Positions 1,472-26,422 of a DNA stretch of 34,511 nucleotides are shown one piece after another; positions within the stretch are counted from its first letter, which is position 1; each line of letters opens with the position of its first letter. The notes under the pieces are model-generated. The model was not told the origin of the DNA, made no database searches, and saw only the letters and a list, made by a program, of their open reading frames with translations. Origin of the DNA: a virus. A program made the position numbers and the translations under genes. The stretch covers positions 1 through 34,511 of IMG/VR virus record IMGVR_UViG_3300009183_000032; one strand, written 5' to 3'.

Positions 1472-1714
1472 TTATTGCTTATCGTTTAATTCTTTTAAAA
1501 GGGCATCCATAGCGCCTCTTTTGCCAAGTTTAATCTTTAGCATTGCATATTTAGGATGGTTTTTAATCCGATCAAACTGCTCATCATCCATCTTCTTAGC
1601 TCTAGCTTTGCGCTCCAATTCCTCATCGCTCATTGGCTTTTTGCCAGCTTTTTCAGCCAACTTCTTTTCCATGTATTCTTCACGATTTTCTGATGTAACT
1701 GTTTCAATAGCCAT
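1472..1714 (-). CDS. Small charged protein between portal and scaffold, unknown function
   Basis: An 80-residue hydrophilic, mostly helical protein rich in Lys, Glu and Asp, with no cysteine and no membrane segment. Its ATG overlaps the portal stop codon (TAATG), so it is translationally coupled to portal. I do not recognise a family. Its place in the head operon suggests a part in assembly, but nothing in the sequence shows one. About 85 non-coding bases separate it from scaffold. Confidence 0.75.
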   Translation of the reverse strand: MAIETVTSENREEYMEKKLAEKAGKKPMSDEELERKARAKKMDDEQFDRIKNHPKYAMLKIKLGKRGAMDALLKELNDKQ

Positions 1715-3906
1715 TATTGGACTCCTGGTTGCATTGGTTGTTGGGGTTGTTGAACTGGCATAGGCTGTGGAGGAGGTTGCATCAAAGGATTCTGTCCTTG
1801 GTCTATATCCTGTGCAGCTTGTGTAGCAAAGGCATATTGCTCCTCATTTCTACGATCCAGCTCCGCTTTAATAGCTGAAGTATCCAAATTGGCAATAAGC
1901 ATCTTAACAATCGCATCAATTTCAGTCTTGTTTTGGCTTGTAATTGAGCGAGTATTTTGGTCATTGACCTTAACTTCTGCCATTGTTTCAGTATTGTGCG
2001 CTCTAGCAGTAACATCCATGAGCTTACGAGCTGTAGCTGCTCTTTCCTTAGTTTCAGTAACAGTTTGACCATATTTGAGATCCATTCCCATAGCCTGCAT
2101 TTGCTGTTGCAACTGCTGGATCATCTGTTTGGACTGAGCCAACTGCATCTGAACTTGTGGAGGAATGTCTGATTTCTCATCAATTTGAGCTAATGGATTA
2201 GATGCTGCCATGCGATCCGCAATAATATCAGCGCCAGGGAAGTCCATATTACGGAAAATTAGATCTCCAGCAGTCTGCATAAGGTTAGGATCAGCAGCAA
2301 GCAAGGTCATCATTGCTTCTACTGCTTCGCCACGCTTAGTTGCAAAGCCAGGGCCTGTATCCATTACTACATCATAGCGACCAACTGATACATCATTGAG
2401 GATCTTTTCAACCCCTTCTTCAGTCGTAACTCTTTGATTTAGTGTAATAATTTCAGGCTTTTCATCAGCTCCAATGATCCGCATTACTCGCTCTGTATCG
2501 TAAATCTTAGGGATTAAATCAAGAATAATACGACCACAATAGGCAATGGAACGAGTTAGATTGTCGTAATAGTGGAAATTGACCATATCGACTTGTTGTT
2601 GCTGACCAGCAATCGCTTTGCCTGACATATTGCCTTGTGGCAACTGGCTTGGATCATAGATGCCAACAACAGTCATCAAGTCGTTAGACATTCCTTGAGT
2701 TGCTGTAACAATGCCAGCAGGAGGAGGTTCAGGCTGTAAACGCTGTGGAGCTGGAGCTGTTCTACCTTCTGTATCAGTTTGCTTGTAGCGCAAAACAGGC
2801 ATCGCTTTGATATTAGCCTGCGCCCACTCATTCTCATGGCCTTCATCTTGACCTTCAGCCATTACCCATTTAGCTTTAGGAGCAAGGGCTACGGACTCGG
2901 TTAAAGCTGTAGTCCAGTAGTTATACATACGCTGTGGATCTTTAGCCATGCGAACCAAGCCAAACTTCTTGTGCTTTGCATCAATAATGCAAGATTGACC
3001 ATAAACAGGAATTACTGGAATGTATTTGCCAGCCCAATCCCTTTCCTCAAGGATCTCCATTGCTGTGAGCTTGCACCATTTGATCTGCTTCCTGTAGGTA
3101 TCTCGCTTCTCAATAATTTCAATGCCTGCATCTGTTAAAACTTGAGCATCAGGCAATTCATCTTCAAATACGCTTGTGCCATCCGATAAAAGGACTAGCT
3201 TTGCAGGAGTGCGAACTGTGTAGAAATACTCGGCAATCCGAACATCTTCTTTAGTAACCCATTCGGAATCAGAATCTCCTGTTCCTCTGCCTGTAAAACC
3301 TTGACCATCATTCTTGCCAGGATACATTGCTCTAAAGGTTTTTTTGCTCACTACAGTAGTGATTAGGCAGCGCTCTGCATCCGAGCCATCAGGAAGCTGT
3401 GAATTAGGATCGAAATAGACTGTAAATGGATTATCAATCGGTCTAATGTAGATTTCCTGCTCAAATGAATCAGGAGAAATATAGTCTGTCATTACCCTAA
3501 AGTAACCCCAACCCATCTTAACTGCGTATTCTGAGGCTGTATCGTAAGCCACATCAGCAGAGGATTGATATTCAATATGACGGCAAACACCACTCAAAAT
3601 ATCGGCTAATTTGGCATCAGCTTCATTGTTCATGCCTTGGACTTTGATCCTAGGTCTTTGTTGCCTGATTTGATTGCAGATCTGACGAACATAGGCATCA
3701 ACCTTGTTAATCGTTAAGCAAGGTCTAGATTCAAGCACTCGGCTGTTTTGCACATCTACAGGCCATTGATCTCCAGCGCAAAAGCGAACATCGTCTAAAG
3801 CCTCAGCTCTATTGTTGGAATCTACATCATTACAAAGGTTTAAAAACTTCTTTGCATCATTGATTCTAGTATCTTCGCTTGAATCTTGATCCTGATAATC
3901 TGCCAT
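1714..3906 (-). CDS. Portal protein, P22-like
   Basis: A 730-residue protein, close to P22 portal (725). It forms the ring at the unique head vertex through which DNA is packaged and ejected. The N-terminal part carries the family signature (CAGDQWP, then RPCLTINKVDAYVRQICNQI and RQQRPRIKV). Near the C-terminus is a Gln-rich helix (QMIQQLQQQMQAMG), a candidate barrel helix, and the end is Pro/Gln-rich. The start chosen is the ATG at 3904-3906, two bases after the terminase stop, with GGGAG upstream; an in-frame TTG at 3921 is a weaker alternative. It directly follows the large terminase, its packaging partner. Confidence 0.93.
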   Translation of the reverse strand: MADYQDQDSSEDTRINDAKKFLNLCNDVDSNNRAEALDDVRFCAGDQWPVDVQNSRVLESRPCLTINKVDAYVRQICNQIRQQRPRIKVQGMNNEADAKLADILSGVCRHIEYQSSADVAYDTASEYAVKMGWGYFRVMTDYISPDSFEQEIYIRPIDNPFTVYFDPNSQLPDGSDAERCLITTVVSKKTFRAMYPGKNDGQGFTGRGTGDSDSEWVTKEDVRIAEYFYTVRTPAKLVLLSDGTSVFEDELPDAQVLTDAGIEIIEKRDTYRKQIKWCKLTAMEILEERDWAGKYIPVIPVYGQSCIIDAKHKKFGLVRMAKDPQRMYNYWTTALTESVALAPKAKWVMAEGQDEGHENEWAQANIKAMPVLRYKQTDTEGRTAPAPQRLQPEPPPAGIVTATQGMSNDLMTVVGIYDPSQLPQGNMSGKAIAGQQQQVDMVNFHYYDNLTRSIAYCGRIILDLIPKIYDTERVMRIIGADEKPEIITLNQRVTTEEGVEKILNDVSVGRYDVVMDTGPGFATKRGEAVEAMMTLLAADPNLMQTAGDLIFRNMDFPGADIIADRMAASNPLAQIDEKSDIPPQVQMQLAQSKQMIQQLQQQMQAMGMDLKYGQTVTETKERAATARKLMDVTARAHNTETMAEVKVNDQNTRSITSQNKTEIDAIVKMLIANLDTSAIKAELDRRNEEQYAFATQAAQDIDQGQNPLMQPPPQPMPVQQPQQPMQPGVQ

Positions 3907-3908
3907 AT

Positions 3909-5195
3909 TTAGCCCATCCAACTCCCTGCTGGAGCGTAAGTTTGTTTAACTGGTTGCCGTTTCTTAGGTTCATTTACCATCAAACCTATATAGCGCCAAG
4001 CATCAGCGCCATGCGAATAGATGTCATGTAACGGCTTTTGACTGAAAGTCCCATGCTCATCAACATCATAGCGATAATGTCTTAGGCAGTTTAAACCTTC
4101 TTCTGTATTTTTTCTATCAAAATAACAACGATTAAATATAGTTCTTGCAGCATTGATTGAGTCGGTTACTGGAACTCGGTCTAAGATCTGCACTTTCATG
4201 CCAGTTGCTCTAACTATTTCCTCAATGGATTTGCCTGTTCCAAGTGACTTTGCAGCAGCATCATGGGGAAGCCAAACAGTATCGTAAACATAGCCAAAGG
4301 TTTGCATCAGGCTTAAATAATGCTGGATAGTCTTTTGATTGTCCTCAAAATATCTTAGAACTCGGATCTCAAAGCCTATAAATTGGATGATCCACGCTGC
4401 TGTATTATCGGCCCAACCCAAATCGAACACTATATGACAGGGTTTGGAGCTATCGTAAGGAACTGTCGTAATCCTACCTTCTAGCTCTGCCATTTCCATT
4501 TCTTTAGCAAAGATAGCCCCATCAATGGTGTTCCTTGTAGCGCCTTCCCATACATTGTTGTAAGCAGCCATATCCCTTTGTTTTAGGGATAAACGCTCTA
4601 AATTAAGGGTTTCAGGAAACCAAGGATTGTCATTCCAGTTTACTTTTACAACTATTGAGCTTTCAGGAGGGTTCTCTACAAAGCGTTTCCAAGTTTCATC
4701 TGTAGGTAATTCAGGGTTAAAACTGACCCAAATCTCTGAATCTTGCTTACGGATTGTAGGAATAAGCACATTCCAGCTATTAGCTGATACGGATTGAGCT
4801 TCCTCTACCCAACAAATATCAATGCCCTCAATGGACTTAACATTGTTTGTATTGTTCTTGATGCCTACAAAGATAAACTCTGTCCCATTTTTACCCCTAA
4901 TTGAGGTTTGTGTAATCTCATAGAAGGTTTCCATGCCCAAAGCATAGATCTGATCTGATAAGAGCTTATGAACCGAGTCTTTAATGGAGGTTTGGAACTC
5001 CCTGGCGCATAGGATACGCATGGGCTGATTAGTTCCTTTAGCTAGTAATGCTCTAGCAAAGCACCAGGACTTAGCACCGCCTCGACCACCATAGAATATT
5101 CTGTAGCGAACCTTATCAGGCTTAAATAGTGCCTCAAATTTCTTAGGAAACTTTATCCTAGAAATTGCATCTTTAATCTGCTGATCTATTTGCAT
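3909..5195 (-). CDS. terL: Terminase large subunit
   Basis: A 428-residue packaging motor. The ATPase half has a Walker A motif GGRGGAKS (residues 36-43), Walker B IDICWVEEA (125-133) and coupling motif WVSFNP (156-161). The C-terminal RNase H-like nuclease half shows Asp258 (FDLGW), Asp312 (LPHDA) and Asp398 (YSHGADAWRY) as candidate metal ligands. It resembles the PBSX/Terminase_3-6 type linked to headful packaging, which fits the circularly permuted assembly. It overlaps the small subunit gene by 23 bases and its stop lies two bases before the portal ATG. Confidence 0.95.
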   Translation of the reverse strand: MQIDQQIKDAISRIKFPKKFEALFKPDKVRYRIFYGGRGGAKSWCFARALLAKGTNQPMRILCAREFQTSIKDSVHKLLSDQIYALGMETFYEITQTSIRGKNGTEFIFVGIKNNTNNVKSIEGIDICWVEEAQSVSANSWNVLIPTIRKQDSEIWVSFNPELPTDETWKRFVENPPESSIVVKVNWNDNPWFPETLNLERLSLKQRDMAAYNNVWEGATRNTIDGAIFAKEMEMAELEGRITTVPYDSSKPCHIVFDLGWADNTAAWIIQFIGFEIRVLRYFEDNQKTIQHYLSLMQTFGYVYDTVWLPHDAAAKSLGTGKSIEEIVRATGMKVQILDRVPVTDSINAARTIFNRCYFDRKNTEEGLNCLRHYRYDVDEHGTFSQKPLHDIYSHGADAWRYIGLMVNEPKKRQPVKQTYAPAGSWMG

Positions 5196-7919: not shown

Positions 7920-8885
7920 ATGAGCAAACCAGCATGTAGTGATCAAGAGTTTATATCATTATTTAAAGAGCATAGATCCCCTACAAAAGTGGCTAGGGTA
8001 TTGAATGTTGATGTTAGAAACATAAATATGCGAAGAAAAAATATAGAAAAAAAATACGATATTCTGCTTGAAGCTAATGACAATAGGGGTATTCCTAAAT
8101 TTATTATTCCTGAAAATAAAGTGCGTTGTGAATATGAATTAAAAAATGGCATTGTTATGGTTGGATCAGATTGCCATTACAACCCAAGCTATATCTCTAC
8201 AGCCCATCGAGCTTTTGTTCATTTTACGAAACAATTAAAACCTAAAATGGTGATTTTAAATGGTGATTTGTTCGACTTTGCAACAGTTAGCCAGCATCAT
8301 CGAATAGGTTATCAGCAACATCCTACAGTCCAACAAGAGCTAGAAGAAGTTCAAAACAGGCTTGGAGATATTGAAAAAGTTAGACCTCCTGGCTGTTTAT
8401 TGCATCGCACCATAGGAAACCATGATTTAAGGTTTGATGGTAAGTTATCTAATGTTCTTCCGCAGTATGAAGGTGTCAAGGGTATGTCCCTTGCAGATCA
8501 TTTACCTGGCTGGTCTTATAGCTGGTCTGTCATGATTAATGACAATACAATGGTTAAACATCGTTGGCACAATGGTATTCATGCTGTGTATAACAATGTC
8601 CTAAAAGGAGGCAAATCAATGGTAACAGGCCATTTGCACTCTTTAAAAGTCACTCCTTGGACTAATTATTCAGGCGATCTTTATGGTGTTGATACTGGAA
8701 TGATGGCAGCAGTCAAGGATGAGCAGTTCTTATATCATGAAGATTCAAGCGTTAATTGGAGGGCAGGATTTGCTGTTCTTACTTATATTAATGGTCATCT
8801 AATGCCTCCTGAGTTGGTGCAAGTCATTAATGAAGATGAGGGCCTTGTGTTTTTTAGGGGTGAACTGCATGAGATTAAATCCTGA
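7920..8885 (+). CDS. Calcineurin-like metallophosphoesterase
   Basis: A 321-residue protein with the full metallophosphoesterase motif set: SDCH (Asp84, His86), NGDLFD (residues 114-119), GNHD (166-169), a His near HNGIH (217-221) and GHLH (237-240). These bind two metals and hydrolyse phosphoesters; the substrate cannot be told from sequence. Residues 7-40 look like a helix-turn-helix (FISLFKEHRSPTKVARVLNV), giving a possible DNA-targeting module joined to a nuclease or phosphatase. AAAGG precedes the ATG. It is followed by a SprT-like gene with a 17-base overlap, so the two form an operon on the strand opposite to their neighbours. Confidence 0.88.
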   Translation: MSKPACSDQEFISLFKEHRSPTKVARVLNVDVRNINMRRKNIEKKYDILLEANDNRGIPKFIIPENKVRCEYELKNGIVMVGSDCHYNPSYISTAHRAFVHFTKQLKPKMVILNGDLFDFATVSQHHRIGYQQHPTVQQELEEVQNRLGDIEKVRPPGCLLHRTIGNHDLRFDGKLSNVLPQYEGVKGMSLADHLPGWSYSWSVMINDNTMVKHRWHNGIHAVYNNVLKGGKSMVTGHLHSLKVTPWTNYSGDLYGVDTGMMAAVKDEQFLYHEDSSVNWRAGFAVLTYINGHLMPPELVQVINEDEGLVFFRGELHEIKS

Positions 8886-17380: not shown

Positions 17381-19717
17381 TTATTCCTTGCCTATGTCTT
17401 GAAGTTTAGTTTTTATTTCTTTTTTAAGCGCTTTTTCTTGTTTAGAAGCAGAAACTTTTCCGCTTACTTTGCCTCCAATAGCTTCTCCAGCTACAGCACC
17501 TCCAGCAGCTCCAAATGGCCCTGCAACAGTTCCACCAACCGCAGCTCCAGCGCTACCAAAAGCCCTTCTAATGCCTACATCAACAAATTTATTTTGCAAA
17601 AGATTGGTTTGAACACCAGCTCCAGGATATTTATTTGGAATATAAAGAATATCTGCTGCCTCTATTCCATCATAAATTGCCTCAAGACCTTTAGGATCGT
17701 TTTTAAATGCAATTTTTAATTTTTCGCTTAAATTTGATGCTTCTTTTGCAGCAGCAACTGAATTAAATGGTTGATTTTTTGCGCTATTTCCAGCTTCTCT
17801 AATTTGCTCAACTAAAGAAGTTTTAATTTGATTAACAGCTCCAATTTTTCCATCTGCATCAAGAGTATTAAATAAATGCTCAAATTGACTATTTGGCAAT
17901 GTAACTACTTTAGCAGCAACTTTTTCATCAGGAATCTTTTGATTTACCCCATTATCACCAAGCAAATCACCTACAGCTTTAGGGTTATCGTAAACTTCAA
18001 TGCCTTTTTGATAATGTTTGCGAGCTTTTTCGTATGTTTCGCCACCAACTGTTTCAAATACATCTTTATCAATTAAACCTTTTAATTCACCGCCTAATTG
18101 TTTAGTTTCATGGTGATATTTTTTGTTGATAAATTTACGAATTTCTTCAGCTTGAGCAACTGTTAATGGTTTTAAATTACCAGCCTCATCAACAAATTGC
18201 TTTCTTTTGACAAATTGATTAATAGCAGTTTGCAATCCTTTTTCATTTTGATATGCAAAATTTTCATCCATTTTTAAAAATTCGTTAAATTTACCAAGCT
18301 CAACTGGTTTATTGCCAAGTTTGTCTGTAGCTTCTTTATAAAGAGTAGTTGTTCCTGTTTGATGCCCTTCATAGCCTTCTTGCAAAGCATCTTTAATAGT
18401 TTTACCAACTCGAATCTTATCGCCTTCTTGAAATGAAGTTCCATGACGAATAACAGTTCCACCAGCTTCATCTTGAATTTTCTTAAAATGGTTGTCCAAA
18501 ACAGACTTTTCAAGATTAATTTGGTTTGTCATTCCTGTGGCATAAGGGCCTTGATCGGCTTGAGAAGTAATAAATTGAGAGGCAGATTCTTTTGGATTGC
18601 CAACTAATGCTGAATTTCTAATATCCTCTAATCCAATTTTTCTAAGCAATTCTTCTCTTGAGCTTAATTCATTAGGATTTAAAGGAGATGTTTCAGCACG
18701 ATTTACAGGCATTTCTTCAGGAACAGTAATAATTCTTTCTGTAACTGGAACTTGAGCAACTACAGGCGCTTGAGTTGAAATTGGCTGTGTTCCAACAGCT
18801 TGAACTGGCTTAACTTCATCCATCTTAGGAAATGCTTGATTAAGTTTTTCTGTAAGAACAGTTTTAGCTTTTGAGCCACCTTCAGATATTTTTTCAACAA
18901 CTTTTCCAGCTCCAGGAATAGCTACAAACTGTTCAGGATCATAAACTGCGCTTTTAATAGTTTCACCAGCAAACTTACCAGGATTTTCTGCTATTGCGCT
19001 TAATGCTTGTTTTGTAGTTTCTATTGGACTTTCAGCAAACTTGCTAACACCCTCAACAAAACTCTTGCCCTTTTTAATTAACTTTTCTTCGGCAGCTTTT
19101 TTGTCCGCTTCAGTAAAGCCTGGAACTCCAATGCTTGAAGCTGTGTATTCAATAACAGGAGCTAATAGACTCTTATCTTTCCAATCTTGAACAGACATTT
19201 CAGACAAAGGCTTTAACATCTCTTTGCCAAACTTTTTGCCTACTTCGGATATAGTTTTTGGTTCTTCTGTTTTAGTTGGAGTTGCTGAAGCAGATTCCCA
19301 TAAATCAGCAAAGCTAGTGCTTGCAGGAGCGCCTGAAACTGTAACTGATGTTGCTTTTGGAGAATAAGAGGATTTAGGATTGATCTCAACATGAACTGGA
19401 TCTTTAGATCCAAAAGGTCTGTGAAGCCCAAATTGATCCAAAAATGCAGCAGGAACTTCAGGAGAAATATCCGCAGCCAATCCTTTTTCATGCAAGCTAG
19501 TGCCAGGCTTTGCTACTAAATTAGGGTTAGATTTTCTTTTTCCAAATAATTGTATTTGTTCTTCGGTTGATCTTGCTCCGCTAGTTAAAGGCAATTCTCT
19601 GCCTGTTTTAGCTTGCCAAGCATCATTAGCAGCCCTAAGTCTGCTAGACATATCCTCATTTAAACCGCCAAATCTATCAACTGGCGCTGCTTCCCAAAGA
19701 TCAGCAAAATTAGCCAT
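17381..19717 (-). CDS. DNA-ejection (injection) protein with N-terminal M15 peptidase domain
   Basis: A 778-residue virion protein. Residues about 20-115 form an M15/VanY-type D,D-carboxypeptidase: LPLTSGARSTEEQIQLFGK, then SLHEKGLAADIS (His76, Asp83) and VHVEI (His109), the three zinc ligands. It would open peptidoglycan during DNA entry. The rest is a long helical and Gln/Lys/Asn-rich ejection region, ending in a Gly/Ala-rich stretch (GSAGAAVGGTVAGPFGAAGG) that could insert in membranes. FADLWE occurs at residues 4-9 and again at 136-141, just outside the peptidase domain. Position (third of three large genes after the connector genes) matches P22 gp16. Confidence 0.83.
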   Translation of the reverse strand: MANFADLWEAAPVDRFGGLNEDMSSRLRAANDAWQAKTGRELPLTSGARSTEEQIQLFGKRKSNPNLVAKPGTSLHEKGLAADISPEVPAAFLDQFGLHRPFGSKDPVHVEINPKSSYSPKATSVTVSGAPASTSFADLWESASATPTKTEEPKTISEVGKKFGKEMLKPLSEMSVQDWKDKSLLAPVIEYTASSIGVPGFTEADKKAAEEKLIKKGKSFVEGVSKFAESPIETTKQALSAIAENPGKFAGETIKSAVYDPEQFVAIPGAGKVVEKISEGGSKAKTVLTEKLNQAFPKMDEVKPVQAVGTQPISTQAPVVAQVPVTERIITVPEEMPVNRAETSPLNPNELSSREELLRKIGLEDIRNSALVGNPKESASQFITSQADQGPYATGMTNQINLEKSVLDNHFKKIQDEAGGTVIRHGTSFQEGDKIRVGKTIKDALQEGYEGHQTGTTTLYKEATDKLGNKPVELGKFNEFLKMDENFAYQNEKGLQTAINQFVKRKQFVDEAGNLKPLTVAQAEEIRKFINKKYHHETKQLGGELKGLIDKDVFETVGGETYEKARKHYQKGIEVYDNPKAVGDLLGDNGVNQKIPDEKVAAKVVTLPNSQFEHLFNTLDADGKIGAVNQIKTSLVEQIREAGNSAKNQPFNSVAAAKEASNLSEKLKIAFKNDPKGLEAIYDGIEAADILYIPNKYPGAGVQTNLLQNKFVDVGIRRAFGSAGAAVGGTVAGPFGAAGGAVAGEAIGGKVSGKVSASKQEKALKKEIKTKLQDIGKE

Positions 19718-19719
19718 AG

Positions 19720-20982
19720 TTATAGCAATCCAAGTGATTTAGCCAATTTAATCTTATCGCCCATTCGTCTTTGTTCATCAGGACTCATAGAAGCCTTTAG
19801 CTTTCTGACTTCTTCAGGAGTAGATTCTTGGAAAATACGAGAATCATTGATTTGATTAAATGTATTCATGCGCTTTTGATATTCGCCAGCATCTTGAACA
19901 TTGCCCAAAAACTTAGCTTTAGCTTGGTTCATGCGCTCAACACCAATAAGCTGATCTGCCATTAACTTAATAGCACCTTCAGTCATTTTCTTATTAGGAT
20001 TGGCAGCTTCAGCAATTTGTCTAGCCATATCAGTATTGCCACCAGTTAAAGTAAGCATTGCTGAATTCTTAGCCAATTCGTCTGTAGCAGTCTTTTCTGC
20101 TGTATAAACATCCATTCCAATAGCTTGAGCAATACCAGCAGCAAGTTCTTTTCTAGCACCGCCTGTGCTTGTAAATGATTCAGGAGCAAGCCTTTTAATA
20201 TTTTGGAAAATAGCAATTCTAGGTTCTGCACCTTTAGCCAAAGCAACAGTTTCAGTTAAATCTTTAGAGGCAATATCTACTGGAGTCGCTGTAAATGCTA
20301 CATCAGCTCTAGTTGGATTTAGCTTTTTAGGAGCAAACTGATTGTTCATTTGGCTAGTAGCACCACCAGCAGGAGCTACAGGAACGCCAACAGGAGCATT
20401 GCTTTCGCCTGGGGAAACAATTTGATTAGGCCCTGATTTAAGACCAATAATCTCACCAGCAGCATTAGTAGTGTATTGAGGAGTTTGAAGTCCTTGCTGA
20501 CCAGTTGCACCAATACGAGCCTGAATTGAATTCAGCATATCCTGACGAATATTTCCTGCTTGGTTTGGATCATTCAGCATTTGGAAATATTTAGCTGTGA
20601 TGGTATGAGCCATAGGAGGAGGAACTCCTTGCTTAATCATACGATCTGTAGCACCAACCAAAGCATCGCCAGCAGCAGTAACAGTCTTATGATCTTTGGG
20701 ATCAATTTTTGCCAATCTTGGATCATTTACTAAAGCATTTGCTTCATCGGCAGCAATGCCAAAATAATCTTTTTGTAGCCCTGCTTTTGCTTTTTCAGCT
20801 CCAGTAACAGCAGTTTCTGATTCAGCTACCCCTTTAGCTATTGAAGGCTGTAAAAGGGCTTTTTCTCTTTGCAAAGCAGTAGAAGATCTTCCAAGATCAA
20901 CTAAGTTTTGTAAAGACATTGCCTGTGGAGCTTGAGCATTTGCATAAATGCTTGCATCAGGTAGAGAGCTAAGTGCTGGCAT
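19720..20982 (-). CDS. DNA-ejection protein (P22 gp20-like by position)
   Basis: A 420-residue helical protein. The N-terminus (SLPDASIYANAQAPQAMSLQ, NLVDLGRS) and middle (QREKALLQPS, YTTNAAGEIIG) fit phage internal virion proteins that leave the head with the DNA. The C-terminal half (about 250-420) is a long helical array rich in Ala, Lys and Asp, without membrane spans. It lies between the other two ejection genes, as gp20 does in P22. The assignment is mainly positional. Confidence 0.7.
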   Translation of the reverse strand: MPALSSLPDASIYANAQAPQAMSLQNLVDLGRSSTALQREKALLQPSIAKGVAESETAVTGAEKAKAGLQKDYFGIAADEANALVNDPRLAKIDPKDHKTVTAAGDALVGATDRMIKQGVPPPMAHTITAKYFQMLNDPNQAGNIRQDMLNSIQARIGATGQQGLQTPQYTTNAAGEIIGLKSGPNQIVSPGESNAPVGVPVAPAGGATSQMNNQFAPKKLNPTRADVAFTATPVDIASKDLTETVALAKGAEPRIAIFQNIKRLAPESFTSTGGARKELAAGIAQAIGMDVYTAEKTATDELAKNSAMLTLTGGNTDMARQIAEAANPNKKMTEGAIKLMADQLIGVERMNQAKAKFLGNVQDAGEYQKRMNTFNQINDSRIFQESTPEEVRKLKASMSPDEQRRMGDKIKLAKSLGLL

Positions 20983-20992
20983 GATTTATTCC

Positions 20993-22021
20993 TTATGCTA
21001 CTGTATATGAGCCTGGAGCAACATTAAACGAACCGCCTGATGTTGGAGCAAATGATCCTCCTCCAGTAGCATTTGCGTTATAGGCTGTGTAATTATTGTT
21101 GTATGCGCCATTTCCAGCTAACGGCTGATTCATATTATTTAAAGAGTAATAAGCTGCTGCATTTCCTGCTGTGTTAGCAATGTTTCCATAAATATTGCCT
21201 TGGGCAATTTGTGAGGCAGCTTGAGCATTACCAGCAGCAGAAGTTACATTGGCAATATTAGTGCCAGTTCCAATCATTGCATTGGCTTGACCAGTAGTTG
21301 CAGTTAATCCCATATTAGCAATATTTTGCAAATTAGAGTAAATATTTCCACGCTGAGTTTGGAATTGATTAAAAGCAGTTCCATATTCTCCTGAAGCAAA
21401 ATTTTGAGCATAATCTTGTAACGACTTTAAAGCGTTTCCTCCGACAGCTCCACCGCTTACATTATTAGCTTGTAAGTTAGCTCCTACACCTTGTTTTAAC
21501 CTAAATTCATAACCTGGCGCTAAATTAGCGTTTAAATCTTGATTATTAAATTTTCTAGTGAAATAACCACGATCAAATCCAATATCGCTAGGAACTGTAA
21601 TTTGGTCTGATGGCGCTGTAGGTGCTGCAACTGATACAGGAACTTCCATCCGTTCACCAGTTGTATTGTTGTAAACAAATTGATTGCCTTCGGATGGCAT
21701 AACAGTTGTATATTTTCCCCCTAAACCATCAGGAGGACTAAGGGAATACCCTGCTGGAACATTAGAAACAGGCGCTCTTACAGCACCAGCTCTTTGTATG
21801 CTGGTATCTCCAAGGCCATAATTCAGCATATTTAATGCTTGAACTCCTTTGGAAGCATAAGGATTATATACATCAGCAGCTCTTTCGCCACTTGCCAATA
21901 ATTGACCTTGCGCTCTAGCTGCTGCATCGGCTTGAGTTTGAGCTGCGCTTTTAGTTGCTTGGCTAGTCATGTAACCGCCAATAACTGCGCCTCCTACGAT
22001 TGCTGTTGCGACTGCTGACAT
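20993..22021 (-). CDS. DNA-ejection protein, DNA transfer protein p32-like
   Basis: A 342-residue protein. An N-terminal Ala/Gly-rich hydrophobic helix (VATAIVGGAVIGGYMTSQAT) may insert in membranes. The middle holds the family signature: PGYEFRLKQGV followed by GNALKSLQDYAQNFASGEYG and a series of Gln/Asn-rich helices, as in phage DNA-transfer or injection proteins next to P22-type tails. The end is Asn/Gly/Tyr-rich low complexity. First of the three ejection genes. Confidence 0.8.
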   Translation of the reverse strand: MSAVATAIVGGAVIGGYMTSQATKSAAQTQADAAARAQGQLLASGERAADVYNPYASKGVQALNMLNYGLGDTSIQRAGAVRAPVSNVPAGYSLSPPDGLGGKYTTVMPSEGNQFVYNNTTGERMEVPVSVAAPTAPSDQITVPSDIGFDRGYFTRKFNNQDLNANLAPGYEFRLKQGVGANLQANNVSGGAVGGNALKSLQDYAQNFASGEYGTAFNQFQTQRGNIYSNLQNIANMGLTATTGQANAMIGTGTNIANVTSAAGNAQAASQIAQGNIYGNIANTAGNAAAYYSLNNMNQPLAGNGAYNNNYTAYNANATGGGSFAPTSGGSFNVAPGSYTVA

Positions 22022-22855
22022 TTAATCTCTCCTTATTGCAAGGCTCAATGCTTGCCGATAATCAATAGTAATTTCTTCACCTAAATTACCACCTTGACAT
22101 CCATTTATAGCCTTTTTTGCTACCAAATCAATATTGCCATTATCTCTTAAAACCATGATTGCGTTAATATTTTTTGAATGATTTGTATATCTTCCAATAG
22201 GAGTTCTTTTGCCATCAATACGAGCTGGAGCAATTACTTCGCCTTCTTCAATATTGCCTGTGGCAAATACACCTTTGCCATCAATTCTTGAATTAGCCAC
22301 CATTGCTTTGTAGCTTCCAAAAGGCATAGGAATTTGATCTTCCATGTTTTCAGTCTGTTTTCTGACTGTTTCATGGTCAAAACCAAACTCTGCTATTGCT
22401 AAGTAATAATCTGCAATATCAGGAGAATGATCTAAAGTAAGAAGCAATTCCTGTGATTTTTGGCTTTCTTGCCAAGTAATGCTTTTGTTTAAATATGTAG
22501 CTTCTAGCTTTTCAACTTCAATTTCATTGGTTGAATAAACATTTTGCCAAACCATATCTTCATGGATATAGCCTATTTTGCGACCTGGCTTTGAAACAAA
22601 AGTCTGAGGAGCTACCAATTCTGTATGAGATCCATCCTGATTGACCATTGTTACTCGACCTTTAAGCATAATATTTAAATGCTCAGTAGTCTGATAATGA
22701 CCTATAGAGAATGTTCCTGCTGGAATAGACACTTCTCTGATGTAGATATTGGGAGCAAATATATGCTTAACAGGGCAATCAGCCTGTTTTTCTTTTAAAA
22801 AGTGCTTTTCAAGCTCTTGCACCTTTTGTTCTGTAAGGACTTGAAGTTCAGACAT
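22022..22855 (-). CDS. Cupin-SET fusion protein
   Basis: A 277-residue two-domain protein. Residues about 30-115 form a cupin: IREVSIPAGTFSIGHYQTTE, HLNIMLKGRVTMVN, then SKPGRKIGYIHEDMVW, with His53, His59 and His98 as candidate metal ligands; stand-alone cupins of this kind are common among phage virion genes. Residues about 182-277 carry SET-domain marks: SRIDGKGVFATGNIEEGEVI, GRYTNHS (221-227) and LGEEITIDY (258-266), the cofactor- and lysine-binding motifs of protein lysine methyltransferases. The ATG overlaps the 79-residue gene by eight bases, so it is made with virion proteins. A methyltransferase substrate, if any, is unknown. Confidence 0.83.
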   Translation of the reverse strand: MSELQVLTEQKVQELEKHFLKEKQADCPVKHIFAPNIYIREVSIPAGTFSIGHYQTTEHLNIMLKGRVTMVNQDGSHTELVAPQTFVSKPGRKIGYIHEDMVWQNVYSTNEIEVEKLEATYLNKSITWQESQKSQELLLTLDHSPDIADYYLAIAEFGFDHETVRKQTENMEDQIPMPFGSYKAMVANSRIDGKGVFATGNIEEGEVIAPARIDGKRTPIGRYTNHSKNINAIMVLRDNGNIDLVAKKAINGCQGGNLGEEITIDYRQALSLAIRRD

Positions 22856-23087
22856 TGTAATAAGGAACTTTATAAATCCTGCCGTTTACAGACATTTCAA
22901 TAAATCCTACAGGATTTGCTGGCAAAACAGCCCCTCCTGATGTTGCAGATGGCGATGTTTTATTGAAGTTAAGCAAGTTTGCAAAGAAGATCTGCCAAGC
23001 CCTTGTCGGTCTTTTAGTCTGCTCATCCATAAAATCAGTCTGTGGATAAGGATTGTCTTGGCTTGGCCCAAATATTTGATTAGCCAT
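22848..23087 (-). CDS. Small conserved protein between connector and ejection genes
   Basis: Seventy-nine residues. The start FGPSQDNPYPQTDFMDEQTK, the segment TRAWQIFFANLL and the end LPANPVGFIEMSVNGRIYKV PYYNV form a pattern found in many short-tailed phages after the gp10-like gene. It is likely a virion component by context; I know of no assigned function. Start and stop overlap both neighbours. Confidence 0.75.
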   Translation of the reverse strand: MANQIFGPSQDNPYPQTDFMDEQTKRPTRAWQIFFANLLNFNKTSPSATSGGAVLPANPVGFIEMSVNGRIYKVPYYNV

Positions 23088-25216
23088 TAGTTTTCCCCTA
23101 CAGATGCTTTTAAGTTAGCAGATACTATCACCGCTTTAACAGGATCAGTAACCACTACTTCATAGATCCGATCTCTTGCCTGACCTAATCTGCGCCAAAT
23201 AATACGATTTTGGTATTTACCAACCTTGCCAATACCAGCCCAATGCTCATTTGACCATGTAGAACCGCCATCATTTGACCAACGGAGCATAGCTTGAGGG
23301 TTTATACCAATGTCGTTATCGCCCAATGGGAAAGTTTCAATGCCCTGCAAACCAACTCCAGGCTGGAATTGGATCTGCAATTCATCAAAATACTGCCTTT
23401 GGAAGTCTGCTACCAAGTGAGGGCATCTACGCATCCTACGGATATGCTGACCATTATCGGTATAGTTATTAGGATCTAAGCGATAAATCTGCCCATTCTC
23501 CCAATCTCCTACCAATACTGAGCCTTGAAAAAAAGCAGCGCAGTTTGATCTGTGGCGCTTATAGTTGTTTTGGTTATCGCACCAAAGCCATTTATGCCAC
23601 ATTTGGGTAGAGCCGTCATATACCCAAGTTAATTCTAGGCTTGGGAATGTCACTACATAGCACTCATGCCCCTCTAATTGATAGGTATAGGCTACAGCAT
23701 CGCTAATATCTTGATTGACAAGGGTATTTTCTACCGCATGAGTTGAGATACGCTGTGGAAAATAGCCGTTCATTTGCACAATAACTGCTTGACCACGATC
23801 ATTTCTTGAAACATAGGCAAAAGAATTGCCAAAACGAGCCATGCTAAATTTGGCAGCTATTCCATGTTGGCTAGATGCGCCAGGGATGCGCTGGAAAGGA
23901 AATGGAAAAGTTCCCACATCAGCCCAAACCTCTGAAGTCTTTTCACCTAATAAATAGATTTGACCATGATCCACGATCAATGAAACAAGATCATCAGGCC
24001 CTGTAAATTTACTAGCAAAAGCCAATCCATAAGTAATGGGGGATAATAGATCAGAAGAAGCATATTGCTGAGTATCAGGTCTGTTATAGACAAAGTAGTT
24101 ATCTACTACATCAACAGAAGATCCTCCTGTAAATGCTCCATCTGAGGCTGGTAATTCGCTAAAGTTGAGCGCATACATAGTTCTAGAGGTAACAGTTTGG
24201 CTATTATTAATAACATAGTTACCAGTAGATCCAGTTCCTGTTCCAAAAGTTAAAGTAAGGGTTAATCCTGTTCCTGCGCCATCAGATGATGTAGAAGCGT
24301 TGTTTGCAGGATTAGATGTATATTGCCCTGAAAAAGTCCTAGTAAGCCCTGTAACAGCTCCTGAGCCTCCAATACTTGTTACTGTATAAGTAGCAGGGCT
24401 AGAACCATAAACACCGCCCAAAACAGTAATATTTTCGTTTACAGCATATCCTGTGCCAGCAGTAGCAATAGTTTCGCTAAGAACTGTTCCGCTACCTAAT
24501 GCAGTAATGATGGTTTTAGCCGTTACTGTAGAGCCTTGAATAGTTTGTCCAACATACAAAGTTCCGCTTGCTACAGCGCTTACAGTCAAAGTAGTTCCTG
24601 ACATTGCACCAGTAATAACCGCAGCTACTGTAGCTGAATTCATGCGAATGGCAGTAGAAATGGTTTGGCTTTGATTAATAGTCCAACTTGTTCCTGACCC
24701 TGAAACAATAACAGTTTCATTAGAAATACCAACTCCAAATAGAGCTTGATTGGCAGCAATAGTTCCTGAAAGAACCCTAGTTACAGTAAGAGTTGTTCCG
24801 CTAATTGTGCCTTCAAATACAGCAGAATTTGGATTAGAAATGCGCCATGTGTAGCGATTTGAACCATCTACAATATAGACATTAGTGCCATTATCAGCAA
24901 TGCTAACTTGACCAGTAGAGGTATTTAATTGCCCAATAATGGTTGCTGTAAAGTTTGTTCCCATTACATAAACATAAGGGCCACATACCGCTACAAGGTA
25001 ATCTTGACCTGAAATAGCTCTCATGCCTCTAACGGCTTGAGCAGTTTGAAGTGTTACGACATTGGTTAAGCCTGGAGTTGGATAAAGCGCAACAACTCCC
25101 CTTGATCCTGGTTGTTTTGTAGGATCAACTTCAGGTCTAAAGTTTATACACTCCTGAGCATCTTGATAGATGGAAGGAGCTTCATAAGCCGAACCAACAA
25201 AGCCAAAATCAGCCAT
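23087..25216 (-). CDS. Packaged-DNA stabilisation protein, P22 gp10-like, with inserted repeat domains
   Basis: A 709-residue protein against 472 in P22 gp10. The start (FGFVGSAYEAPSIYQDAQEC INFRPE, then ALYPTPGL) and the C-terminal beta-propeller-like part from about residue 360 match the family that plugs the head after packaging. Between them, residues 135-347 are low-complexity beta repeats absent from gp10. Repeat A is 135-192 ([16 protein letters not shown]...). Repeat B starts at about 199 (GAMSGTTLTVSAVASG) and is interrupted near 241-327 by a different module (GTGYAVNENITVLGG...) before its closing strand (GNYVINNSQTVTSRTM). Length minus insert equals about 496 residues. Confidence 0.86.
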   Translation of the reverse strand: MADFGFVGSAYEAPSIYQDAQECINFRPEVDPTKQPGSRGVVALYPTPGLTNVVTLQTAQAVRGMRAISGQDYLVAVCGPYVYVMGTNFTATIIGQLNTSTGQVSIADNGTNVYIVDGSNRYTWRISNPNSAVFEGTISGTTLTVTRVLSGTIAANQALFGVGISNETVIVSGSGTSWTINQSQTISTAIRMNSATVAAVITGAMSGTTLTVSAVASGTLYVGQTIQGSTVTAKTIITALGSGTVLSETIATAGTGYAVNENITVLGGVYGSSPATYTVTSIGGSGAVTGLTRTFSGQYTSNPANNASTSSDGAGTGLTLTLTFGTGTGSTGNYVINNSQTVTSRTMYALNFSELPASDGAFTGGSSVDVVDNYFVYNRPDTQQYASSDLLSPITYGLAFASKFTGPDDLVSLIVDHGQIYLLGEKTSEVWADVGTFPFPFQRIPGASSQHGIAAKFSMARFGNSFAYVSRNDRGQAVIVQMNGYFPQRISTHAVENTLVNQDISDAVAYTYQLEGHECYVVTFPSLELTWVYDGSTQMWHKWLWCDNQNNYKRHRSNCAAFFQGSVLVGDWENGQIYRLDPNNYTDNGQHIRRMRRCPHLVADFQRQYFDELQIQFQPGVGLQGIETFPLGDNDIGINPQAMLRWSNDGGSTWSNEHWAGIGKVGKYQNRIIWRRLGQARDRIYEVVVTDPVKAVIVSANLKASVGEN
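24176..24814 (-). repeat. Beta-repeat insertion in the gp10-like gene (two copies, one interrupted)
   Basis: Encodes residues 135-347 of the stabilisation protein. The unit is SGTTLTV-x-V-SG-x(4)-G followed by a closing Q-T strand. The second unit is split by an unrelated Gly/Thr-rich module of about 85 residues. Similar DNA recurs in the gp4-like gene at 25784-26176. Confidence 0.7.
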
Positions 25217-25225
25217 TTTCCAACC

Positions 25226-26422
25226 TTATCTAAAGAATCCACCATTAAGAATCCAGCCAGCATCTTTTTGACGGCTAGAGAGCATTGCATCAGCAAACTG
25301 AGCTGATTGCATTGGTTTCATGTTGGTGCGTTTTAGGGTTGCTTTAGCTTGTGCAGCATAAGCGTTAATCATCGTAATTTGAGTTTGTGAGGCTTTGCCA
25401 TACATAGGCATCAAACGCTCTGCCAAACACCATCTAAGAGCCATTGAATAGCCTTGTGGCAGAACTATATCGTCATACATAGTGCCATAGTTACTGAATA
25501 TGGTTTGAGCAAACAAATGGACTTCGCCTTGGGATGGATTAGGCCATAGGAATATGTTGCCTGATTGCTCATTTGCATTGAAATAAACAGCTTTAGGCCA
25601 AGGGCCATTCAAAGTTTTCAGACCAATAGAGTTGTAGTTATCTAAAGCCAAAATCGCCATTTGGTAATCTAAACCGCCATTGGCAATAGGCTGACCATTG
25701 GAGCTAGTGTTTACCCTTACATAGGCAGAATCTAATCCTAATGGTTTTTGATAGTAAGCAGTTATCGTTGTAGGAACAATCGTTCCAGTAATAGTTGTTG
25801 AGGCTACTGTTTGGGAAGCGCTAACTGTATAAGTACCAGTTCCACCAGTTCCAGTAATTACAGCAGAAATTGTTGTTCCAGCAGTAATACCAGTTCCGCT
25901 AATAACTGATCCCACATTGACTGCGCCTGAAGTAACGGCAGTTACAGTAAGAGTTGTGCCTGAAATAGAGCCTGTAAATACTGGGGTTTGCGTACCCTGA
26001 ACAATATTTAAAAGATAAGTACCCTGCTCATTCACATTGCCACCAGCTCCAGTTAAAGAGCGAACAATGCGAGTTCCAGCAGTAATGCCTTGAGCTTTAA
26101 GATATTGACCTTGTGCTACAGCTCCTGAATTAATGCCAGTAACTGTCATTACATTGCCTGAAAAAGTAGCAGGAAAAGAAGCGCCAATGAAGTTTGCAGT
26201 AGATGGATCAGGGCCAATCGTATATTGAACTTGACCTGGCACAACTGGGAATATGATCTCAGTTATGTTGAAAACCATCATATCCTCATTTGACCATTGG
26301 TCTATGAGGTCATTCATCATCTCAAAAGCATCTAAAGCAGCATCGGCTGAAGGTTGCTCTCCAGCCTCCAAAGCGCCAATGTCTTTTAAAGCTCTGCTAA
26401 TGATGTCAATAGGTTTTGTCAT
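25226..26422 (-). CDS. Head-completion/tail accessory factor, P22 gp4-like, with inserted repeat domains
   Basis: A 398-residue protein; P22 gp4 has 166. The start ([20 protein letters not shown], then [20 protein letters not shown] and MVFNITEI) and the C-terminal part ([22 protein letters not shown]) match the gp4 family, which closes the portal ring and links it to the tail. Residues about 83-148 and 149-213 are two tandem beta repeats; the second reads [16 protein letters not shown] ... [14 protein letters not shown] and is related to those in the gp10-like protein. ATG lies three bases after the preceding stop. Confidence 0.85.
25784..26176 (-). repeat. Tandem beta-repeat insertion in the gp4-like gene
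   Basis: Two units of about 65 codons (residues 83-148 and 149-213). The second is the cleanest copy of the SGTTLTV-x-V-SG / GTGTYTV-x-QTV unit. DNA such as GTTACAGTAAGAGTTGT is shared with the gp10-like insertion. Confidence 0.7.

Follow-up and report, generated by a model that had tools for sequence, protein, structure and literature searches.

A cupin–SET fusion protein encoded directly before the ejection genes of a P22-like podovirus: a possible accessory lysine methyltransferase

The window (the whole analyzed stretch of 34,511 nucleotides, IMG/VR record IMGVR_UViG_3300009183_000032) represents a P22-like podovirus, since it encodes a P22-type portal, terminase, scaffold, major head protein, holin and GH19 endolysin. 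The virion genes of the minus strand follow the P22 order. The portal gene, which classifies the phage, and the genes surrounding the ORF described here are listed below, together with the domains of its product.

1714..3921, minus strand: P22-type portal protein (PF16510, E 4.3e-180)
17381..19717, minus strand: probable third ejection protein, at the position of P22 gp16 (PF02557 (VanY), E 1.5e-5, and position)
19720..20982, minus strand: probable second ejection protein, at the position of P22 gp20 (position only, no family match)
20993..22021, minus strand: DNA-ejection protein, P22 gp7-like, directly downstream of the cupin–SET gene (phrog_598, E 4.7e-22)
22022..22855 (stop included), minus strand: cupin–SET fusion protein, 277 aa (ATG ORF; phrog_34170; AlphaFold)
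22046..22324, minus strand: SET domain, about residues 178-270 (Pfam SET; structure matches; conservation)
22325..22480, minus strand: helical linker, residues 126-177 (model helices 126-138, 144-156 and 161-169)
22481..22798, minus strand: cupin domain, about residues 20-125 (phrog_12032/phrog_24280; cupin structures)
22848..23087, minus strand: 79-aa ORF between the head-closure and cupin–SET genes (no Pfam or PHROG family match)
23087..25216, minus strand: head-closure protein Hc3, P22 gp10-like (phrog_578, E 1.7e-104)
25226..26422, minus strand: adaptor protein (PF24175 SU10_adaptor, E 1.1e-6)

The siting of the fusion gene between connector and ejection genes, proposed in a first-pass annotation made from the sequence, was confirmed by the Hc3 gene and 79-aa ORF on its upstream side and by the protein encoded directly downstream, whose family, phrog_598, is also matched by P22 gp7 itself. 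Several neighboring genes have features of their own. The protein in the gp16 position carries a VanY-type peptidase at its N-terminus, which is likely a cell-wall enzyme riding on an ejection protein. The adaptor and head-closure proteins both contain an inserted domain matching phrog_21413, and in the adaptor this insert, probably because it is a beta-sandwich, also exceeds the Pfam cut-off for multicopper oxidases. Elsewhere in the window, a metallophosphoesterase gene on the plus strand (7920-8885) lies amid minus-strand ORFs of the replication region.

The AlphaFold model of the fusion protein, built with an alignment of 36 relatives (mean pLDDT 91.3, pTM 0.87), contains two confidently predicted folds, an N-terminal cupin and a C-terminal SET domain, within one ORF, in agreement with the architecture first read from the sequence. 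The whole protein matched phrog_34170 (E 2.5e-95), a full-length cupin–SET family that is listed with unknown function and to which we add here domain, motif and gene-position evidence. The top PDB sequence match of the whole protein, LRP4, was rejected as a chance match within the cupin part.

The cupin forms a beta-barrel, residues 24-110 of which superpose on solved cupins with Z scores of 9-10 over 82-103 residues. The first 135 residues of the protein matched two families of stand-alone cupins, phrog_12032 (E 4.7e-35) and phrog_24280 (E 1.1e-26), and lone cupins are also encoded in the named podophages considered below, which supports the earlier view that this cupin belongs to a type that often occurs by itself in the virion regions of phages. 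These podophage cupins share both the N-terminal domain and the gene position with the fusion protein, but they have only a short tail behind the cupin, whereas the cupin–SET protein continues into the linker and the SET domain. As for the metal-ligand positions of cupins (HxH...E...H), H53 and H59 are mostly kept in the clade of the window protein, the second ligand is Gln and the last one varies; in several cupin-only relatives the first ligand is replaced by Arg or Lys.

The SET domain was recognized by Pfam (PF00856) with E 3.9e-5 and 24.4 bits against a cut-off of 22.4, the match covering only the C-terminal half of the domain (profile positions 60-104 of 105, residues 219-266). The fold extends over residues 177-271, approximately, and superposes on MLL1, EZH2, vSET and SETD8 (Z 9.4-10.7 over 76-97 residues); Foldseek searches of the model were concordant with these superpositions. 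The best fold matches were the SET domains of MLL1 (Z 10.7, rmsd 2.0 A over 80 residues) and EZH2 (Z 10.2), with about 30% identity. By sequence, the family profile also reaches MLL1 (E 0.002) and vSET (E 0.012), albeit weakly.

The characteristic motifs of SET enzymes are present: (i) GKG at residues 193-195 (motif I), (ii) GRYTNHS at 221-227 (motif III, consensus RxxNHxxxPN), and (iii) EEITIDY at 260-266 (motif IV, consensus GEExTxxY), which includes the catalytic Tyr266; GRYTNHS and LGEEITIDY (258-266) are the two stretches that had initially been quoted as SET marks. The conservation of these sites was analyzed in 81 distinct SET sequences, obtained from 109 SET ORFs. Gly195 and Ser189 are invariant in all 81, Asn225 and R222 are kept in 99%, and His226 in 97%; E261 is retained in 79 of the 79 sequences that reach it, as are T263 and Tyr266 in 78 of 78. 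At motif III, the window protein has NIN where most relatives have PN. The first-pass annotation had made the assignment depend on a SET fold in the predicted structure and on AdoMet-binding residues in close relatives: the fold is present in the model of the C-terminal part and in its superpositions, and relatives both close and distant retain the residues of the AdoMet site. All parts of the protein are under purifying selection (dN/dS of 0.10 for the cupin, 0.07 for the linker and 0.13 for SET, values which are rough because synonymous distances are near saturation), and chance is excluded, as the protein is conserved in dozens of relatives with identities as low as 30%.

Two elements of canonical SET enzymes are absent. 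The SET-I insert with motif II (YxG) is missing, as only about 10 residues separate the RID strand from GRYTNH according to our reading of the alignment, and in the window protein Tyr266 is not followed by any aromatic residue, i.e. the post-SET (C-terminal) aromatic is also lacking. SET proteins vary most in SET-I, and therefore its loss lowers the certainty about substrate binding, not about the fold. Since both elements are missing, substrate binding may need a partner, and a partner chain could complete the lysine/substrate channel.

Among characterized proteins, a close parallel is vSET (PBCV-1 A612L), an H3K27 methyltransferase. Both domains are small, virus-encoded and devoid of pre-SET, with motifs I, III and IV in common (34% identity over 80 residues, Z 9.8, rmsd 2.0 A). 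However, vSET stands alone and modifies the histones of a eukaryotic host, whereas the phage domain is fused to a cupin, is shorter (SET-I being the missing part) and contains an extra GCxGG loop before motif IV. It likewise differs from MLL1 and EZH2 in having no pre-SET, post-SET or SET-I helix, and in that the host has no histones.

Full-length relatives of the fusion protein were found in Rhodoferax phage P26218, phage zth2-2, two Manatee Spring podoviruses and Pseudoalteromonas phage PH1, and one such relative already bears an annotation taken from the histone methyltransferase of PBCV-1. Scanning viral contigs with a profile revealed at least 525 relatives. Of the 185 cupin ORFs in the loci that we fetched, 109 include SET, a share biased by the queries, and because these loci were retrieved through the cupin, SET without a cupin could hardly be found among them. 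In cellular genomes the SET profile matched rarely (2 of 398 Pseudomonadota at E 1e-5): one match is the genome that supplied query row L187 and the other is a canonical SET with a post-SET cysteine motif.

In the cupin-domain tree (139 columns), SET occurs in two separate cupin clades and only in some members of each. The tree needs five SET changes, at least four of which are forced by well-supported branches, while one rests on L188, which has a long branch. Common to the SET domains of the two clades are the motif RTxxGR[YF]xNH and a short SET-I, which suggests that one phage SET type was involved; on these sequence features, a single type seems to have moved between cupins. The clearest case is a pair of loci, L229 (2235-3099) and L230 (825-1380), with 89% DNA identity through the cupin. 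Past the cupin, one of them encodes SET and the other a short unrelated tail, and homologous DNA resumes at the gene end. This pair is a natural, clean SET/no-SET module swap, and SET is thus a swappable C-terminal module.

The position of the gene is constant. A gp7-like gene lies directly downstream of 92 of the 109 SET ORFs and of 54 of the 76 cupin-only ORFs. In Vibrio, Thalassomonas and other podophages, a lone cupin is encoded immediately ahead of the ejection gene, preceded by Hc3 or by one or two small genes; in a T7-like Sphaerotilus phage its gene is found between tail tubular B and the T7 gp14 homologue. The corresponding gene orders are 10-26-14-7-20-16 in P22 and 12-13-14-15-16 in T7, so that, by analogy of position and not by homology, the cupin corresponds to P22 gene 14 and T7 gene 13. 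P22 gp14 (DUF2824) and T7 gp13 (PF11090) are encoded directly before the first ejection gene, as is the cupin–SET protein, and they too are small proteins with an enzyme-like fold, but the folds are unrelated. The gp14 and gp13 families (PF11039/PF11090) had no match in the window at E 0.1, nor in 11 cupin-bearing phage records.

P22 gp14 (L101:8911-9366), modelled from an identical sequence (L102:2001-2453; pLDDT 83.6), has a full-length GNAT acetyltransferase fold (Z 16.7 over 144 residues, rmsd 2.4 A). In the alignment, the usual acetyl-CoA loop signature is missing and looks degenerate. T7 gp13 gave only weak matches to spermidine acetyltransferases (E 0.4); we take its Pfam family to be placed in the acetyltransferase clan. 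The occupants of this slot would thus be GNAT-like in P22 and perhaps T7, a cupin in many phages, and a cupin–SET protein here. A general scheme, in which the enzyme-fold proteins encoded at this position chemically mark lysines of ejection proteins during assembly, strikes us as distinctly doubtful; if it were true, proteins could be readied for injection by acetylation or methylation interchangeably. A rule by which a phage has either GNAT or the cupin but never both is not strict, because phage zth2-2 has both. In that phage (L025:5935-7933), where the genome order is different, cupin–SET is encoded immediately behind the terminase gene; a small ORF that looks ejection-like comes next, and the GNAT acetyltransferase gene lies two genes past cupin–SET.

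Several features of the fusion protein are therefore directly supported: both folds, through confident models, the conserved AdoMet and catalytic motifs, purifying selection, a fixed slot, and the modular gain and loss of SET. A fused enzyme in a constant position, with a SET domain that is dispensable, suggests an accessory lysine methyltransferase that the cupin brings to a partner in assembly. The explanation that we tentatively prefer, while rating it somewhat short of probable, is that an assembly cupin in the gp14/gp13 position bears a compact AdoMet-dependent SET lysine methyltransferase for a virion or ejection protein. The cupin would bind a virion component or an assembly intermediate and thereby present the SET active site, late in infection, to lysines of phage proteins, most likely those of an ejection protein or another part of the virion; the methyl mark may then tune packing, stability or ejection of the target. 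As cupin-only versions do without SET, methylation would be an accessory, not an essential, assembly step.

The neighboring proteins were searched for a lysine conserved at 85% or more in SET-bearing genomes. At this threshold no such lysine was detected in the gp7-like protein or in the head-closure protein, and hence the likeliest neighbor substrates have no fixed target site; this alignment result argues against the gp7-like protein as a fixed-site substrate. The gp7-like protein is lysine-poor (6 lysines in the window), and several of its positions are more often lysine in cupin-only genomes, in a comparison that ignores relatedness. The gp20-like, gp16-like and 79-aa proteins do contain conserved lysines, which carry no weight because the sequences are too few or too similar and there are almost no cupin-only controls. 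Homologues of the 79-aa ORF (22848-23087) occur in 21 SET-bearing loci, most of them close relatives, and have four near-invariant lysines.

The lack of a SET-linked lysine in the gp7-like and head-closure proteins also fits an enzyme directed at the host. In that case SET, delivered along with the ejection proteins or else synthesized late in infection, would methylate a host protein, and the cupin would be a carrier only. Moreover, accessory functions aimed at the host are often dispensable and mobile, and SET shows both traits among the cupin clades. We nevertheless consider this unlikely, because in the loci fetched SET was not seen alone but remained joined to a protein of a structural slot, encoded adjacent to the ejection genes. 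It is also improbable, in our view, that the domain is non-catalytic and has retained its fold as a binding or oligomerization module. The absence of the SET-I and post-SET substrate elements points in that direction, as does P22 gp14, an enzyme fold in the same slot without the usual acetyl-CoA loop signature. However, the 81 sequences, whose identity falls to about 40%, show almost no variation at Tyr266, the Asn-His pair or GxG, and a pure scaffold should not keep them all.

PHROG and RefSeq entries label the lone cupin "short tail fiber protein" or "tail fiber adhesin", which would make it a receptor-binding accessory with SET outside on the tail; this is very unlikely, since these names stem from annotation, the gene sits in the gp14/gp13 slot and AdoMet is unavailable outside the cell. 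That SET modifies lysines of its own cupin or linker, e.g. to switch the assembly state, is extremely unlikely, even though the linker is strongly constrained and some SET enzymes are known to methylate themselves.

Each component was known before: SET enzymes, SET proteins encoded by viruses, and the phage cupin; the fusion itself is already grouped in phrog_34170. In the open-access literature on SET domains and cupins in phages we found no description of a cupin–SET fusion or of a phage SET enzyme of this kind, and the paper on Rhodoferax phage P26218 does not mention SET. To our knowledge, lysine methylation of proteins by SET enzymes has been studied almost wholly in chromatin. The finding puts a testable question, namely the role of the small proteins encoded in the P22 gene 14/T7 gene 13 slot, and the L229/L230 pair, together with the cultured carriers (Rhodoferax phage P26218 and Pseudoalteromonas phage PH1), opens it to experiment. 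A conserved, selected SET enzyme within a virion operon points to methylation in phage assembly or entry.
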